From IMG/VR virus record IMGVR_UViG_3300033146_003076, positions 1-64,000 of that record: a stretch of DNA of 64,000 nt; one strand, 5' to 3'. The position numbers and the translations under genes were made by a program. The notes below the pieces were generated by a model that worked only from the letters and a program-made list of their open reading frames with translations, had not been told where the DNA came from and did not search any database. The first letter of the stretch is position 1. Every line of letters begins with the position of its first letter. This stretch comes from a virus. Positions 35,061 through 46,878 of this stretch are shown here, in pieces.

Positions 35061-35912
35061 TTATATTTTACTTATTCTTGTTTTAAACAATCTTGCTGTT
35101 AATTTACCAATAGCTTTTATTGCTGCTTGACTTTCTACTATTTCTCCTTTTGCTTCTCTTAATACATCTTCCATCATTGCTTTAATGACTTTTCCTGTAT
35201 CTTCAATTTTATCAGTGTTATCTAACTTATCAAGAACATGTGTTAATCTCATTGGAGTGACCCATTCTTCAGCAATTTCTTCTGCTTCTTTTAATATTTT
35301 AAGTTGTTCTGGGTCAACTTCTCGAGGAGTTTTAGTTTCCATGAATTCATTTCTTTTATGTTTTGTAATAACCCTATTACCTCTTTTATCAGTAAATTCT
35401 TCCAAAGGTTTAATCACAATCCCTTCTCTTATTTTATCAGTTCCACAACCCCTTTTCATAGCTACAATTGATGGTGAATCTTTTTCTTTGTTTAATAATT
35501 CTAAACTTGTTGATATTTTTTTATATGGTACAAATTCAAGATTTAACTTATTTGCAACATCTTTAGCATTAGGAACATTTAACCAAGCAGTATCTATTTT
35601 AACTTCAAACACAATAAACATTGGTTCTTTACCATAGGTTCCACTCATGGCTTGTTGCTTTCCACCGTATTGTTCTCCATAAATTGTAACATTTATATCT
35701 TCAAATTGTTCCATAAAACAGTTGTGTAATTCAGTGGTATTAAAAATACTCACAAATGTTTCATATTTACATCCACCAGAATGAAAAAATATAGTGTTGT
35801 TTTTCCACTGGAGTCTTGCTGAAGTACCATGAACCTTTTCCATAGCATAACATTCTTTAAAATTAAAAATTCTATCATCTTTGTACAAATTTTGGATATG
35901 GAGGTAACCCAT
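35061..35912 (-). CDS. RNA ligase (Rnl2-like)
   Basis: 283 residues, ATG at 35912 with GGTGA upstream. Nucleotidyltransferase motifs are present: motif I K26 in MEKVHGTSAR (adenylated lysine), the YGEQYGG region near 80, FEV near 102, motif IV EGIVIKPL (163-170) and motif V ITKHKRNEF with K184/K186. The family joins 3'-OH and 5'-phosphate RNA ends and repairs tRNAs cut by host defence. C-terminal domain is helical, as in Rnl2. With the DHH protein nearby, an RNA repair or decay module is plausible. Confidence 0.85.
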   Translation of the reverse strand: MGYLHIQNLYKDDRIFNFKECYAMEKVHGTSARLQWKNNTIFFHSGGCKYETFVSIFNTTELHNCFMEQFEDINVTIYGEQYGGKQQAMSGTYGKEPMFIVFEVKIDTAWLNVPNAKDVANKLNLEFVPYKKISTSLELLNKEKDSPSIVAMKRGCGTDKIREGIVIKPLEEFTDKRGNRVITKHKRNEFMETKTPREVDPEQLKILKEAEEIAEEWVTPMRLTHVLDKLDNTDKIEDTGKVIKAMMEDVLREAKGEIVESQAAIKAIGKLTARLFKTRISKI

Positions 35913-35913
35913 T

Positions 35914-35973
35914 TTATTTCACCTTTTTTTTGTATGAATTTACTTCTTTCCATAAATGTTCACATTTATTCAT
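35914..35973 (-). CDS. Very short leader ORF
   Basis: 19 codons starting at 35973 with AGAGGT 9 nt upstream (MNKCEHLWKEVNSYKKKVK). Its last codons overlap the GGTGA site of the RNA ligase. Could be a leader peptide that couples translation, or a non-functional start. Weak evidence. Confidence 0.35.
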   Translation of the reverse strand: MNKCEHLWKEVNSYKKKVK

Positions 35974-35978
35974 TTTTA

Positions 35979-36191
35979 TTAACCTCTTGTAATATTTTGT
36001 AAAGGACTGTGTATTATTTTCTCAATATGATTAACCGAGTTATTATAATGATGATAATAAGAAGTATTATAATGGTCAACCACTACAACCTCTTTACAAT
36101 CAATTTCTGTTGTCTTAATATTCATAATGAATAAAGACTGAAAAATAATAAAAAGTGTTAAACATAAGATTATAATTTTATCAAAGTTCAT
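35979..36191 (-). CDS. Small membrane protein
   Basis: 70 residues, ATG at 36191. Residues about 4-25 form one hydrophobic segment (IIILCLTLFIIFQSLFIMNI), followed by a short His/Asn/Tyr-rich outer part. Overlaps the DHH gene stop by 4 nt. Unknown role. Confidence 0.5.
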   Translation of the reverse strand: MNFDKIIILCLTLFIIFQSLFIMNIKTTEIDCKEVVVVDHYNTSYYHHYNNSVNHIEKIIHSPLQNITRG

Positions 36192-37072
36192 TTTAACTCC
36201 TTGTTTATGAATTCATTAAAATATTCAATACCTATATGGAATCCTGCTGCATTTTTATGCCCACCACCACCAAATTCTTTTGCAATAATACTAACATCCA
36301 ATTCACCAATACTGTTTAATCCAAATATTACTTTATCTTTATTAAAACCATATTTTAAGGCAATATCATAACCATTATTACAAATCATATTTCCTAATAA
36401 TGATCCATCATATATATTACTATTATTAATAAATAATGTTTTTTTGTTTCTAAATGTTACGGGTAATCCAGTACTAATAATTTTTTCAATTCTTTCTTTT
36501 TTTAGTTCAAATAACATTTTACCTTTTTCAAGTAATGGTTCCATCTTATTTGTATCACTATTAGTTATTAATTCAATCCATCTTTCAATGGACCAGTTTT
36601 TGTTTAGTTCTGCAAACCAGTGTGTTTTTTCTCCTAGTTTATGTTGCCACCTATCATAATCATCAACCAAGTTTATTTCTTTTGTGCTGGTCCTCGTTTT
36701 ATACAAATATTCATATGTTAATAACGCTCCACACCGATCTAAATTTCTTATTCCTGGTTGGTTAATATCTTCCCACATTTCTTCTAATTTTTCTTTTGCT
36801 GATTTATGATGATCACACCATACTAAATAATAATTATTTTTTATTGTTTCCATTTCTTCTTTTTCTAATGAAAAATCAACAATAAAAACCATATCATAAT
36901 GAGGCACTGTTTCATTTACTAATAAATGTTTTAATTTATCTTTATAATTAGTATATCCCACTTCTATTAATTCACAAGTATGGTTTTCTATATTCATATA
37001 ATTCTTAACTATTGCTCCGGCTAATTTCCCATCAGAATCGTTATGATGTATACATAGTATCTTTTTATTCAT
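36188..37072 (-). CDS. DHH/DHHA1 phosphoesterase
   Basis: 294 residues, ATG at 37072. All hallmarks are present: HHNDSDGKLAG at 9-19, VDFS near 65-68, CDHHKSA at 86-92, DDYDRW near 147, and the DHHA1 motif FGGGGHKNAAGF near 267-278. The superfamily contains RecJ exonuclease, nanoRNase/oligoribonuclease NrnA and c-di-AMP phosphodiesterases. The short length fits NrnA-like oligonucleotide turnover rather than full RecJ. Substrate cannot be read from sequence. Confidence 0.85.
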   Translation of the reverse strand: MNKKILCIHHNDSDGKLAGAIVKNYMNIENHTCELIEVGYTNYKDKLKHLLVNETVPHYDMVFIVDFSLEKEEMETIKNNYYLVWCDHHKSAKEKLEEMWEDINQPGIRNLDRCGALLTYEYLYKTRTSTKEINLVDDYDRWQHKLGEKTHWFAELNKNWSIERWIELITNSDTNKMEPLLEKGKMLFELKKERIEKIISTGLPVTFRNKKTLFINNSNIYDGSLLGNMICNNGYDIALKYGFNKDKVIFGLNSIGELDVSIIAKEFGGGGHKNAAGFHIGIEYFNEFINKELK

Positions 37073-42954: not shown

Positions 42955-45783
42955 TTATATAGTTTTGTAAAATCCTGGTCTTGGTCTTATTATATCTCCT
43001 CTATGGACTAAAATATTAATTATCCCATCAAAATCTATTTCTTTTTCTCCTGTTAAGTTACTCCATTTCTCTAATACTTCTTCATGTGGACTTATTCCAA
43101 TTTCATTTTTACATGAGTCTATACATTCCCTTAATACATACATCTTATCTCTTTTCTTTTTAGGGACAATTTGTTCTATTGCATTAATATTTAATCTTCC
43201 ATCGGCAATATCATTAGTCATTATACCTTGTGCTTTAAATGATTCAACAAATATTTCTATTGCTTCTTCTGCGTCTTGTACTTCTATAATTTTACTTAAC
43301 CTTGATTTCGCACATGCTGTTGAAACTCTTATTATATTTGTAATTAATCTACTAGAAAAATATGCTTGTTCATCACCTGGATTTGCTGGTTTTGTTAATT
43401 TTATATATTCATTAGTTATATGTTTTATTGCTTCATTACTCATAACTGGTTTAACATAATTTTTAACATAAGCTAAATATTTTAATATTTTCTCATTGTT
43501 ATAATTAACATCAACCTCATCATCTTCATTATACTTATTGAATATTGTTTTGATTATTTTTCTTTGATGTTCTTCTGTTTCTATTGCATGCATTGGAAAT
43601 ACTAAATCAAACCTATCCATAAAGTCTTTAGGGAACCCAATTTGTTTCCATACTGCTTCATACTTATCAAAGACTCTATTAACTGGGTTTGCTGTTGCTA
43701 AAACTGTTGTTTCTGTTCTTATTATACTATGAATATTTGCTTTGTCAAATGGTACTTCTAAGTCCATTAATGCATTATTAAGTTTAGCCATATCATCTTT
43801 TTCTAATTTATCACATTCATCAAGAACAACTAAACTTCCTGTTGATAATGCTAACACCCCTGCTTCTAATACCCAACATCCTAATTCTTCATCTTTTGTT
43901 ATTGCCGCAACTAATCCAACTCCTGTTGTTGATGATCCACTAGATAATCTACTATTAGGCAGATAATGTAATGAACATTTTGCTAATTTTGTTTTACCAG
44001 AATTATGCGTGATTACACCATTATCTAAAATAAAATTATGGGTGTCCGGCACAATTAAGTCCCACATTTCTTTTTTTTCCTTGCTCTTGTATAATTGTGT
44101 AATTTTGCATGGCATGATTGACAAAGAATTGTTAAATTGTCCAGAACATTGTTTTTGTTGTTCCCATCTATGTGATGAATAACCAAGTCCATTTTTGTAT
44201 TGTTTTTTCCACAAGTGTGACAAATCCAGTACAAATATTCTTTTGCTATTTTTACATACTTTTTTCTGTTTTTGCTTAAACCCACGCTTAACCCATTTTT
44301 GTAAGCCGGATTTTTTTCTCCTTCTTTTCCTTTGAATTTGTATAAATTTTGAGAAATTCCTAAACTTACTTGTTCTTTGAAGGACCTCATAGGTATGCCC
44401 ATCATTTTTAACCTTCTTATTATTACATGATGATCGTGCCCCACTATTTTTCCTATTTGTGTTGCAGATAATTGTTTTTCTTGATATAACCTTTTTATTA
44501 AGTTTAAATCCAAATTTACCCACATATTGTTTTTTTCTAATGTTTGATCTCGTTGCATATTTTTCATCATTTTTAACCACCCTTAATAATAAATCTGTTA
44601 TTTTTAATTCATTTGTTTTTATTTCCATGATGATCTTATTTCTTATTACTATCCATATATGGTCTTTTGAACATTTTAATTCCTCTTTCTCTGTACAAAT
44701 AATATATACATCTTTTTGGCCTGTGCATTTCGGGATGCACATACTTTCAACTTTTTCAAATTTATCATTAATTGTTAAACAAGTTTTTGCTTCTGATATT
44801 TTTTTTAATCCATCTTTTGTTTGGATTAATTGGTCTTTTAACATACATCCTGGATTTCCACATATTAATACATGGATTAAACCTCTTTCTTCTAATTTAT
44901 TATTGATGTATAAATGTTCTCCACCAATTAGCTGTAAGAATAATGCTTTTTTAATTATATCATGTCCATAAATAGTTCCATAAATCTCTTGGATAATATT
45001 TTCTCTAAAGTTTGTTTGTGTTGACATTAACTTTATTTCTTCAATATCATCTTCAGATAATTTTACAGTTCCTATTCCTTCTTCAATCATTTCTATGTTA
45101 TTTGCTTCAACATATTTAATTTGATCTACACTATTATCTTTTCTTGGTTTTTCTTTTAATATTCCTGTAACTTTAATTTTTTTACTTGGTTGAACATTTT
45201 TATCTATGTTCTCATGACATAATGAACCTTTCAATGATATTAACATTGTTCGTGGTTTTTGTGCAGGGTCAATCATATTAATATCTTCTTCGATAACTAA
45301 CTTTTGTAAATCTTCTAAATCTCTTGTTGTTTCTTTGAATCTTGTTTTATTTCCACATTGACATATTTGTGGTTTTGTTATTTTTTCAGAGAGTTGTACG
45401 AGAGGTATTGTATTTCCACATGAAGGACAATCATAGTGTATTACTTTTGGGAAATGTGTAACTTCTGTTGTCTTTCTTATATATCCTGTTATAGATACTA
45501 ATTTTGAAACATCTTTTGCTCTTAGTTTCCAAATATCTTTATGTTCTGACTGTGGTATGTTTGTAAATCTGATAGAAGTATTTTTCTTTCCGGATATACC
45601 TTCGTATGCTATTTCACATACTTTAATTGCTTCTTCAAAATCATCTAAGATATAATCTCCTAGTTCTGGTGATACTTGGATAATTTTCCCAAAATCCACG
45701 TATAAAGAATTATTTATTATTACATTATCACTTTTATTAAAAAAGGTTTTTGCTGAATCGATTAGTTTTGCTATTTCACTCAT
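42955..45783 (-). CDS. mcm: MCM replicative helicase with intein
   Basis: 942 codons, ATG at 45783. Extein: N-terminal domain with zinc site CPSC (119-122) and CQC (141-143); AAA+ core with Walker A GNPG(309-312)|SGKT(595-598), split by the intein; Walker B VLDECDK near 653-659; sensor-1 TANP near 696-699; arginine-finger-like MDRFDLVF near 722-729; C-terminal winged helix. The spliced protein is 660 residues, a normal archaeal MCM. It should unwind the virus DNA. The intein covers residues 313-594. The Walker A here is GNPGSGKT rather than GDPGxAKS, so it is a diverged viral MCM. The next genes in the leftward direction are wHTH and SSB-like. Confidence 0.9.
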   Translation of the reverse strand: MSEIAKLIDSAKTFFNKSDNVIINNSLYVDFGKIIQVSPELGDYILDDFEEAIKVCEIAYEGISGKKNTSIRFTNIPQSEHKDIWKLRAKDVSKLVSITGYIRKTTEVTHFPKVIHYDCPSCGNTIPLVQLSEKITKPQICQCGNKTRFKETTRDLEDLQKLVIEEDINMIDPAQKPRTMLISLKGSLCHENIDKNVQPSKKIKVTGILKEKPRKDNSVDQIKYVEANNIEMIEEGIGTVKLSEDDIEEIKLMSTQTNFRENIIQEIYGTIYGHDIIKKALFLQLIGGEHLYINNKLEERGLIHVLICGNPGCMLKDQLIQTKDGLKKISEAKTCLTINDKFEKVESMCIPKCTGQKDVYIICTEKEELKCSKDHIWIVIRNKIIMEIKTNELKITDLLLRVVKNDEKYATRSNIRKKQYVGKFGFKLNKKVISRKTIICNTNRKNSGARSSCNNKKVKNDGHTYEVLQRTSKFRNFSKFIQIQRKRRRKKSGLQKWVKRGFKQKQKKVCKNSKRIFVLDLSHLWKKQYKNGLGYSSHRWEQQKQCSGQFNNSLSIMPCKITQLYKSKEKKEMWDLIVPDTHNFILDNGVITHNSGKTKLAKCSLHYLPNSRLSSGSSTTGVGLVAAITKDEELGCWVLEAGVLALSTGSLVVLDECDKLEKDDMAKLNNALMDLEVPFDKANIHSIIRTETTVLATANPVNRVFDKYEAVWKQIGFPKDFMDRFDLVFPMHAIETEEHQRKIIKTIFNKYNEDDEVDVNYNNEKILKYLAYVKNYVKPVMSNEAIKHITNEYIKLTKPANPGDEQAYFSSRLITNIIRVSTACAKSRLSKIIEVQDAEEAIEIFVESFKAQGIMTNDIADGRLNINAIEQIVPKKKRDKMYVLRECIDSCKNEIGISPHEEVLEKWSNLTGEKEIDFDGIINILVHRGDIIRPRPGFYKTI
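44002..44847 (-). mobile_element. Intein in the MCM Walker A loop
   Basis: 282 codons inserted between Gly312 and Ser595 of MCM. Block A begins with Cys (CMLKDQLIQTKDGLKKIS), block B is CSKDHIWIVI, and the C-terminal blocks read WDLIVPDTHNFILDNGVITHN followed by Ser+1. All residues for splicing are present: Cys1, block B His, penultimate His, terminal Asn and Ser+1. Walker A is a classic insertion site, so without splicing the helicase would be inactive. The middle 500 nt read as basic, non-conserved sequence in this frame but encode an HNH nuclease in another. Confidence 0.85.
44055..44570 (-). CDS. HNH endonuclease nested out of frame inside the intein
   Basis: 171 residues, ATG at 44570 (second ATG 44567), stop at 44055-44057, shifted by one base relative to MCM. 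N-terminal HTH (LSATQIGKIVGHDHHVIIRRL, residues 34-54) and an HNH core: CHTC at 117-120, VIHHIDGNNKNN at 130-141, DNLTILCQSCHAKLH at 144-158. GGTGGT lies 5 nt before the ATG, inside the intein reading frame, so it has its own ribosome binding site. It should make the double-strand cut that spreads the intein. The host frame is open over the full length too. Confidence 0.8.
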   Translation of the reverse strand: MMKNMQRDQTLEKNNMWVNLDLNLIKRLYQEKQLSATQIGKIVGHDHHVIIRRLKMMGIPMRSFKEQVSLGISQNLYKFKGKEGEKNPAYKNGLSVGLSKNRKKYVKIAKEYLYWICHTCGKNNTKMDLVIHHIDGNNKNNVLDNLTILCQSCHAKLHNYTRARKKKKCGT

Positions 45784-45930: not shown

Positions 45931-46854
45931 TTATTTTGTTTTTACATTATGATATTTTAATAATTTACCCATATTACCATCACACCAAACATTTAATATA
46001 GTATTATGAAGTTTAGGGTTTTCAATTTTCATTCTTTGAAATCTGTTTGGTTCTTTTTCTAAGTGAACTCCAAAACCACAACCAACACATCCTGTACGTT
46101 TTGCTTTTGTTGTTTCCCATTTACCTTCAACTTTAATTATTTCTCCATAAGCATCACAATAATCTAGATCATATTGTTTAATATATTCTAGTATGTCCTG
46201 TTCTGTCCAGAAACCTAAAGGAGTACATTGTCCTTTTTCCCAATCGATACACCCATTTTGAAGATATTGTTTTTTTCTTTGTTGTCCGTCACTAGCCATG
46301 GTTGCAATAAATCCTTTCATGCCTGATTTTTTATTAAATCTTTTTATTGGTTCTTTCTTTAAATAATGGCAGCACATATCACTTACTTCTATATCTGAAG
46401 TAATTATATCTTTCCATTTATTAGATATTTTAAACATTGTTTTACTTCCATCCTTCATTATCCCTGTTATTAACCTACTTCTTAAGTAATCTGACTTTGT
46501 ATGTTTTGCTTGATAAATAAAATGTGCTTGTTGTTTAGTTGGGAATGGTATACCATATTTATTCCACACTTCCAACATACTCTTTTTTGGTTTTAAAACA
46601 ATGTTTGCTTTTTTTAATGCGTGATCTCTTGTGTGTAGTTCAGTTCCTGTATCTACAAATAATACTTTAACATCTGGAAAAAAGGATTTTATTAAATGTA
46701 ACATAACTTCCGAATCTTTACCCCCACTATAAGAGATATAAACCTCTCCATTATATTCTTGATAGAACTTTCTAATCTTAATTAACGAAAGATTAATCTT
46801 TACATTTAAAGATAATTTCTGTCTTTGTTCTAATTGCCATTTTTCCATCTTCAT
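45931..46854 (-). CDS. PP-loop PAPS-reductase-like protein
   Basis: 308 residues from the ATG at 46854, about 28 nt behind a TATA box (leaderless). SYSGGKDSEVMLHLI at 41-55 is the PP-loop for ATP; then VLFVDTGTELH and a Cys cluster (SDMCCHYLKKEP; KAKRTGCVGCGFGV) as in CysH/DndC-like proteins with an Fe-S cluster. Phage members are thought to act on sulfur transfer, including DNA phosphorothioation or tRNA modification. No other Dnd gene is visible. Substrate unknown. Confidence 0.8.
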   Translation of the reverse strand: MKMEKWQLEQRQKLSLNVKINLSLIKIRKFYQEYNGEVYISYSGGKDSEVMLHLIKSFFPDVKVLFVDTGTELHTRDHALKKANIVLKPKKSMLEVWNKYGIPFPTKQQAHFIYQAKHTKSDYLRSRLITGIMKDGSKTMFKISNKWKDIITSDIEVSDMCCHYLKKEPIKRFNKKSGMKGFIATMASDGQQRKKQYLQNGCIDWEKGQCTPLGFWTEQDILEYIKQYDLDYCDAYGEIIKVEGKWETTKAKRTGCVGCGFGVHLEKEPNRFQRMKIENPKLHNTILNVWCDGNMGKLLKYHNVKTK

Positions 46855-46878
46855 TATACCCAATCTATATACAACCTG

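Follow-up and report, generated by a model that had tools for sequence, protein, structure and literature searches.

Introduction

Inteins are usually described as a single polypeptide in which the splicing and endonuclease domains share one reading frame. In the 'fractured genes' of Dassa et al. (2009), split inteins reportedly flank a free-standing endonuclease gene that sits between their two halves. Canonical organization is represented, for example, by the dCTP deaminase intein of phage CL131, which carries an in-frame HNH endonuclease and self-excises in E. coli (PMC6293099). For MCM helicases, the Pyrococcus CDC21-1 inteins occupy the P-loop as mini-inteins without an endonuclease (PMC6801210). 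The nearest published precedent for an out-of-frame HNH is the ShiLan domain of mycobacteriophage methylases, an insertion in which the host gene remains open while the HNH is encoded in the third frame, with a GTG start and no detectable ribosome binding site; the host protein is thought to retain the insert (PMC11855218, 2025). Applejack provides a further methylase case. Two intein papers, PMC5050341 and PMC8966425, make no mention of out-of-frame nesting. The ShiLan paper's remarks on overlapping frames cite a preprint on actinobacteriophage inteins of 'non-canonical architecture' (10.1101/2025.01.02.630785), and actinophage examples, among them the Clown case discussed below, may already be reported there.

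The intein analyzed here, which interrupts a viral MCM helicase, departs from the canonical bifunctional design in that its HNH lies in the +1 frame. We consider it highly likely that a mini-intein in the MCM P-loop captured an entire +1 HNH gene, yielding a composite mobile element with a separately made nuclease.

Results

An intein splits the P-loop of a viral MCM helicase

A 78.9-kb viral contig, of which the first 64 kb constitute the window (the whole stretch of DNA that was analyzed), carries on its minus strand an ORF (45783..42955) whose translation is an MCM helicase of 942 amino acids, matching Pfam MCM (E=9e-48), MCM_OB and MCM_lid. The nearest MCMs by similarity belong to archaeal tailed viruses, and an archaeal host is therefore likely for this virus. 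Its other genes (35061-37072, 45931-46863, 1684-2508) include a T4 Rnl2-like RNA ligase, a DHH phosphoesterase, a PAPS-reductase-like PP-loop protein and a DNA repair exonuclease.

The initial annotation had claimed that an intein with Cys1, a terminal His-Asn and Ser+1 splits the Walker A motif of this protein, and the translation and profile matches confirm it (Table 1). The P-loop is divided between GNPG and SGKT, and all of these residues are present along with the block-B His (CSKDH). The MCM frame encodes a splicing domain that is recognized by Pfam Intein_splicing (PF14890, E=1.2e-12, covering intein residues 28-282, a span much in excess of the profile segment that it matches) and by NCBIfam intein_Cterm (TIGR01443, 5e-04). 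Positions 1-78 and 68-224 of PF00493 fall on opposite sides of the insert, so both extein halves are intact and in one frame, and the insertion site is empty in 14 viral MCM relatives. In an alignment with the TerL and PolA inteins described below, Cys1, His63 and Asn282 are invariant; the C-terminal block aligns weakly with the Pho RadA intein, and a tblastn search of phages with the whole intein returned weak C-terminal matches only. With its catalytic residues, splicing profile, intact exteins and insert-free relatives, the insert has the attributes of an intein, and we would expect it to undergo protein splicing. That it is instead a self-splicing group I intron has next to no probability. 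While related HNHs do occupy group I introns of phage polA, Rfam gave no match at 43800-45000, nor at any of seven +1-class loci, although it detected the known introns, and here the splicing blocks and catalytic residues are intact within a continuous frame.

Table 1. Coordinates of features at the MCM intein locus, numbered from the first nucleotide of the window.
Feature	Coordinates	Strand	Basis
MCM N-extein, ends ...HVLICGNPG (first P-loop half)	44848..45783	-	ORF; Pfam MCM, MCM_OB
MCM C-extein, begins SGKTKLAK	42955..44001	-	Pfam MCM, MCM_lid
Intein, 282 codons, Cys1 to His-Asn, Ser+1	44002..44847	-	PF14890, TIGR01443/intein_Cterm
Intein N-terminal splicing part, blocks A and B (CSKDHIW)	44571..44847	-	Translation; TerL/PolA intein alignment
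Filler: HNH gene read in MCM frame, stop-free	44068..44570	-	No recognized domain; predicted disordered
Intein C-terminal splicing blocks (MWDLIVPDTHNFILDNGVITHN)	44002..44067	-	Translation, NCBIfam, alignments
Nested HTH-HNH endonuclease gene of 171 codons, shifted +1 from the MCM/intein frame	44055..44570	-	Pfam, PHROG, model
GGTGGT, Shine-Dalgarno-like site for HNH gene	44576..44581	-	Duplex energy -8.3 kcal/mol
TAA in HNH frame, four codons upstream of HNH ATG	44583..44585	-	Sequence

A complete HNH gene lies within the intein, one base out of frame

The MCM intein's own frame contained no endonuclease match in the ORF list or in Pfam. The endonuclease was instead said to be an HTH-HNH ORF shifted by one base, with its own ATG (44570) and stop and with GGTGGT 5 nt upstream, and the sequence, Pfam and PHROG all bear this out. 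Its product matches PF01844 (2e-05, above the cut-off) and the PHROG HNH family (3e-14) and retains the HNH motif columns (HH-D, NN, N and H); with such a match to a known family, the second frame cannot be open by chance. The gene stops directly before block F, the start of the C-terminal splicing block. In the structural model of the product, the HTH (residues 20-70) has pLDDT >90 and the HNH fold is moderately confident (pLDDT about 75-86); a Foldseek search with this model returned nothing below 0.001.

The internal start is a good one. Among 1023 internal ATGs it outranks 98%, and among 46 predicted gene starts of the 64-kb window 72%; just 2.2% of those internal ATGs have a Shine-Dalgarno-like duplex as good as that of the HNH gene. 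This start signal suggests that the HNH may be expressed separately, which would uncouple the nuclease level from splicing. Some phage genes use programmed ribosomal frameshifts, and since the two frames differ by +1, a shift from the MCM frame could conceivably produce a nuclease fused to the N-extein and the N-terminal intein part. However, the HNH frame is closed by a stop four codons ahead of its start, which would confine the shift to the intervening 12 nt or to a point past the ATG; moreover, an ATG with a strong Shine-Dalgarno-like site exists and the fusion product could not splice, making such a frameshift distinctly improbable. A real architecture in which the HNH is an unexpressed relic is also unlikely: decayed PolA versions are known, as described below, but relics readily lose the ORF, motif residues, start and Shine-Dalgarno-like site, all of which the MCM-intein HNH keeps. 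Separate initiation of a nested gene remains our preferred reading.

Stop codons are selectively absent from the host frame

Across the 175-codon open stretch there are 24 stops in the third frame and none in either the MCM or the HNH frame. Each MCM codon begins on the wobble position of an HNH codon, and therefore an MCM-frame stop can arise only where a wobble T precedes AA, AG or GA. At those at-risk sites where a T would leave the HNH amino acid unchanged, HNH codons carry T in 0 of 32 cases, as compared to 40 of 67 elsewhere in the gene (Fisher 5e-10), whereas wobble T is equally common before AA, AG or GA and otherwise across the virus (66% vs 67%). When the HNH protein was back-translated with viral codon usage, a mean of about 21 MCM-frame stops was expected (P(no stop) = 4.3e-17). 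The claim that the intein frame stays open across the HNH gene for reasons other than chance is thus fully borne out.

The same count bears on whether two compensating sequencing or assembly indels have displaced an ordinary in-frame endonuclease domain, the scenario that the initial annotation had named as its possible undoing. The contig is metagenomic and known here from its assembly alone. Nevertheless, an untranslated frame would be expected to hold those roughly 21 stops, and their avoidance argues against an assembly slip; in addition, the HNH frame is closed just upstream of its ATG, the gene ends exactly before block F, and many contigs, as well as two isolates sequenced independently, repeat the layout. 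We therefore regard an artefact as extremely improbable, and take the overlap of an intein with a whole HNH gene to be genuine.

The +1 arrangement recurs in TerL and PolA inteins

A tblastn search with the MCM-intein HNH matched the annotated terminase of cyanophage S-EIV1, whose TerL intein (337 aa) has an HNH in the +1 frame. The TerL intein of Gordonia phage Clown has the same arrangement. Both are isolated phages, and the deposited annotation gives the terminase only. For a broader census of IMG/VR we used a DNA pattern anchored solely on the C-terminal splice junction, which consequently selects for no HNH frame. At the TerL site, 28 contigs contained an intein; 27 of these encoded an HNH, all in +1 and none in frame, and one was a mini-intein. 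At the PolA site, there were five distinct inteins with a +1 HNH (L124, L125, L163, L166, L168), three distinct inteins with an in-frame HNH (for example, L164 and L167) and one mini-intein. Clustering at 95% identity left 19 distinct nested HNHs, not counting that of the MCM intein. Therefore, the out-of-frame arrangement is not unique to MCM, and it is always +1 among the nested cases found. Searches of genome contigs, which gave only a very limited view of cellular genomes, with the TerL HNH alignment revealed no relative, and with the TerL-site pattern revealed non-terminase sequence only.

At the nested TerL and PolA loci, the host frame matches the Pfam splicing domain and the +1 frame matches HNH or HNH_3, whereas in the in-frame PolA intein L164 both matches fall in one frame. 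A SET match on the filler of L131 was set aside as weak or spurious. Both frames were open in all 35 of the overlaps examined, with 3 to 30 stops in the third frame. Similar to the MCM locus, wobble T was absent from at-risk sites in 17 representative TerL and PolA cases (0/511, vs 523/1521 at other sites), and it did not differ between the two kinds of site in the exteins of the same genes (0.29 vs 0.29). The PolA nested HNHs have internal starts with Shine-Dalgarno-like sites at the same position as in the MCM intein. Inspection of start signals revealed no clear start codon for the TerL nested HNHs; in S-EIV1 (L008:1341-2336), for example, the HNH frame runs open through almost all of the intein, its N-terminal splicing part included.

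The genetic code offers a rationale for this choice of frame. With an HNH at +1, any host-frame stop includes an HNH wobble T, such that under the standard code a synonymous T-to-C change can always remove it. In the other frame, a Met codon followed by a codon starting with A creates an unavoidable TGA. Indeed, the HNH protein could not be encoded with the other frame open in the MCM case or in 32 of 34 other cases (P exactly 0). These considerations suggest a +1 rule for nested HNHs, which should be regarded as a tendency because ShiLan uses the third frame.

The HNH is the conserved product of the overlap

Single-sequence scans of IMG/VR confirmed no close relative of the MCM-intein HNH or of the MCM itself, nor did the sets searched yield one of the intein, and two-frame selection could therefore be assessed in the TerL and PolA families only. 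When TerL or PolA relatives were compared in 17 pairs, the HNH-frame protein was in every pair better conserved than the host-frame reading (for example, 91% vs 75% and 64% vs 32% identity). Conservation of the host-frame reading was close to that of the third frame, which is unused, and substitutions were commonest at position 3 of HNH codons. The HNH is therefore the conserved product, and the host frame is merely stop-free. The initial annotation had proposed a test for synonymous-site constraint in both frames. Constraint is seen in the avoidance of MCM-frame stops and in the conserved HNH frame of the TerL and PolA families; the host-frame residues of those families fare like the third frame. 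For the MCM intein, selection on two frames is suggested by its stop avoidance together with these parallel families.

A functional domain in the MCM-frame filler, with the HNH overprinted on it or the reverse, would also leave two frames open. However, the filler has no family match, its TerL and PolA counterparts show only this background conservation, and AlphaFold assigns it low confidence (pLDDT <50 at residues 81-224 and 236-255). In the same prediction, strands appear at the splicing ends (residues 7-77 of the N-terminal part, confident to about residue 40 only) and confidence exceeds 70 only close to both termini. A functional filler is thus very improbable as compared to a stop-free passage through the HNH gene.

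Nested HNHs probably have separate origins and can decay

The three nested HNH groups (MCM, TerL and PolA) differ from one another. The nearest kin of the MCM-intein HNH are free-standing viral HNHs, and those of the TerL HNHs are each other. Outside their own group, the PolA nested HNHs are closest to HNHs of phage polA group I introns (32-44% identity, E down to 1e-35). Rfam detects these introns, which interrupt the same motif about 20 nt or less from the intein site (TGRLS/C-x-[DE]PNLQN), intron ends being approximate; exon 1 extends to ...TGRLSSSNPNL or ...RLSSSKP. The intron HNH genes occupy L174:1465-2001, L175:1465-1950, L176:1459-1944 and L177:1471-2001. The in-frame PolA intein HNHs form a separate lineage. 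Since the PolA nested HNHs are kin to those of introns at nearly the same site, they point to capture of complete endonuclease genes that already targeted that site. More generally, kinship to free-standing (MCM) and intron-borne (PolA) HNHs fits gene capture rather than a frameshifted native domain. Inteins have probably captured whole HNH genes at least three times, and the earlier proposal that an HNH gene invaded a mini-intein out of frame gains support from both the MCM sequence and its TerL and PolA relatives.

Two PolA inteins illustrate decay. In L171 (near 8455, minus strand), an intein near-identical to that of L163 has HH changed to HR in the nested HNH motif. In L172 (10292-10756), a mini-intein has an out-of-frame remnant of an HNH gene, its 3' part, and is a putative decay intermediate of the nested arrangement. 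In both, the splicing parts persist as the nuclease degenerates, which is what a selfish passenger would be expected to do. Observations bearing on homing are limited to a patchy distribution and this decay of the nuclease in the related PolA intein.

Discussion

In our proposed mechanism, a splicing-competent mini-intein would have taken up an HNH gene at the position where inteins usually carry their endonuclease. Ribosomes translating MCM would cross this gene out of frame and thereby produce a disordered linker inside the intein, which would excise itself together with the linker to restore MCM. A second initiation at the internal ATG would yield a 20-kDa HTH-HNH nuclease, predicted to cut the P-loop DNA of intein-free MCM alleles and so to drive homing, while non-T wobble bases in the HNH codons would keep the MCM frame open. 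The MCM locus would then behave as an intein combined with a homing endonuclease gene that stands on its own.

We think it likely, with somewhat less assurance than for the MCM locus itself, that inteins and endonucleases are generally associated in a second way, by out-of-frame nesting, arising from at least three independent HNH invasions (MCM, PolA and TerL) and persisting at +1 because stops are removable there, with the nuclease thereby translated separately. The HNHs would derive from free-standing elements or from group I introns aimed at the same site. Out-of-frame overlap thus appears to be a means by which mobile genes have repeatedly lodged inside inteins. A class of viral inteins that keeps its endonuclease as an overlapping gene of its own would separate nuclease dosage from host splicing, and it offers a route for a mini-intein to gain an endonuclease without domain fusion, one source apparently being a group I intron whose insertion site almost coincides with that of the intein. 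Standard annotation misses nested endonucleases, as in S-EIV1 and Clown, and some inteins whose own frame seems to lack an endonuclease do in fact carry one. From the +1 rule follows, moreover, a testable prediction as to which overlaps can arise.

Among known systems, the TerL inteins of S-EIV1, Clown and IMG/VR resemble the MCM intein in combining a host-frame splicing domain and a +1 HNH with a stop-free host frame, and in having an HNH gene that ends at or near block F; they differ in extein and site, in their zinc-finger type HNH, and in an HNH frame that is open over nearly the whole intein. The +1 PolA inteins share with MCM a compact HTH-HNH gene of about 170-190 codons, placed after the N-terminal splicing part and with an internal start preceded by a Shine-Dalgarno-like site, but their HNHs are of the HNH_3 subtype and homologous to those of polA group I introns. 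The CL131 intein and PolA inteins L164 and L167 likewise unite a Hint domain and an HNH in one intein, yet there the HNH shares the intein's frame and belongs to its polypeptide.

Our survey also encountered two C5 DNA methylases on other viral contigs (L060:1264-2817 and L071:1285-2730) with a ShiLan-like organization, each having a +1 HNH of 142 codons (74% identical to one another) and no intein blocks. In Gordonia phage Forza, an HNH-like stretch lies among tRNA genes (L034:1501-1674) where the record has no annotated feature. ShiLan itself lacks the intein splicing domain that the MCM intein has. The Pyrococcus CDC21-1 inteins share the MCM P-loop insertion and lack the endonuclease. Finally, the fractured genes resemble the MCM intein in having the endonuclease as its own gene at an intein, but in those systems the host gene is broken into separate ORFs, whereas the MCM ORF is continuous.
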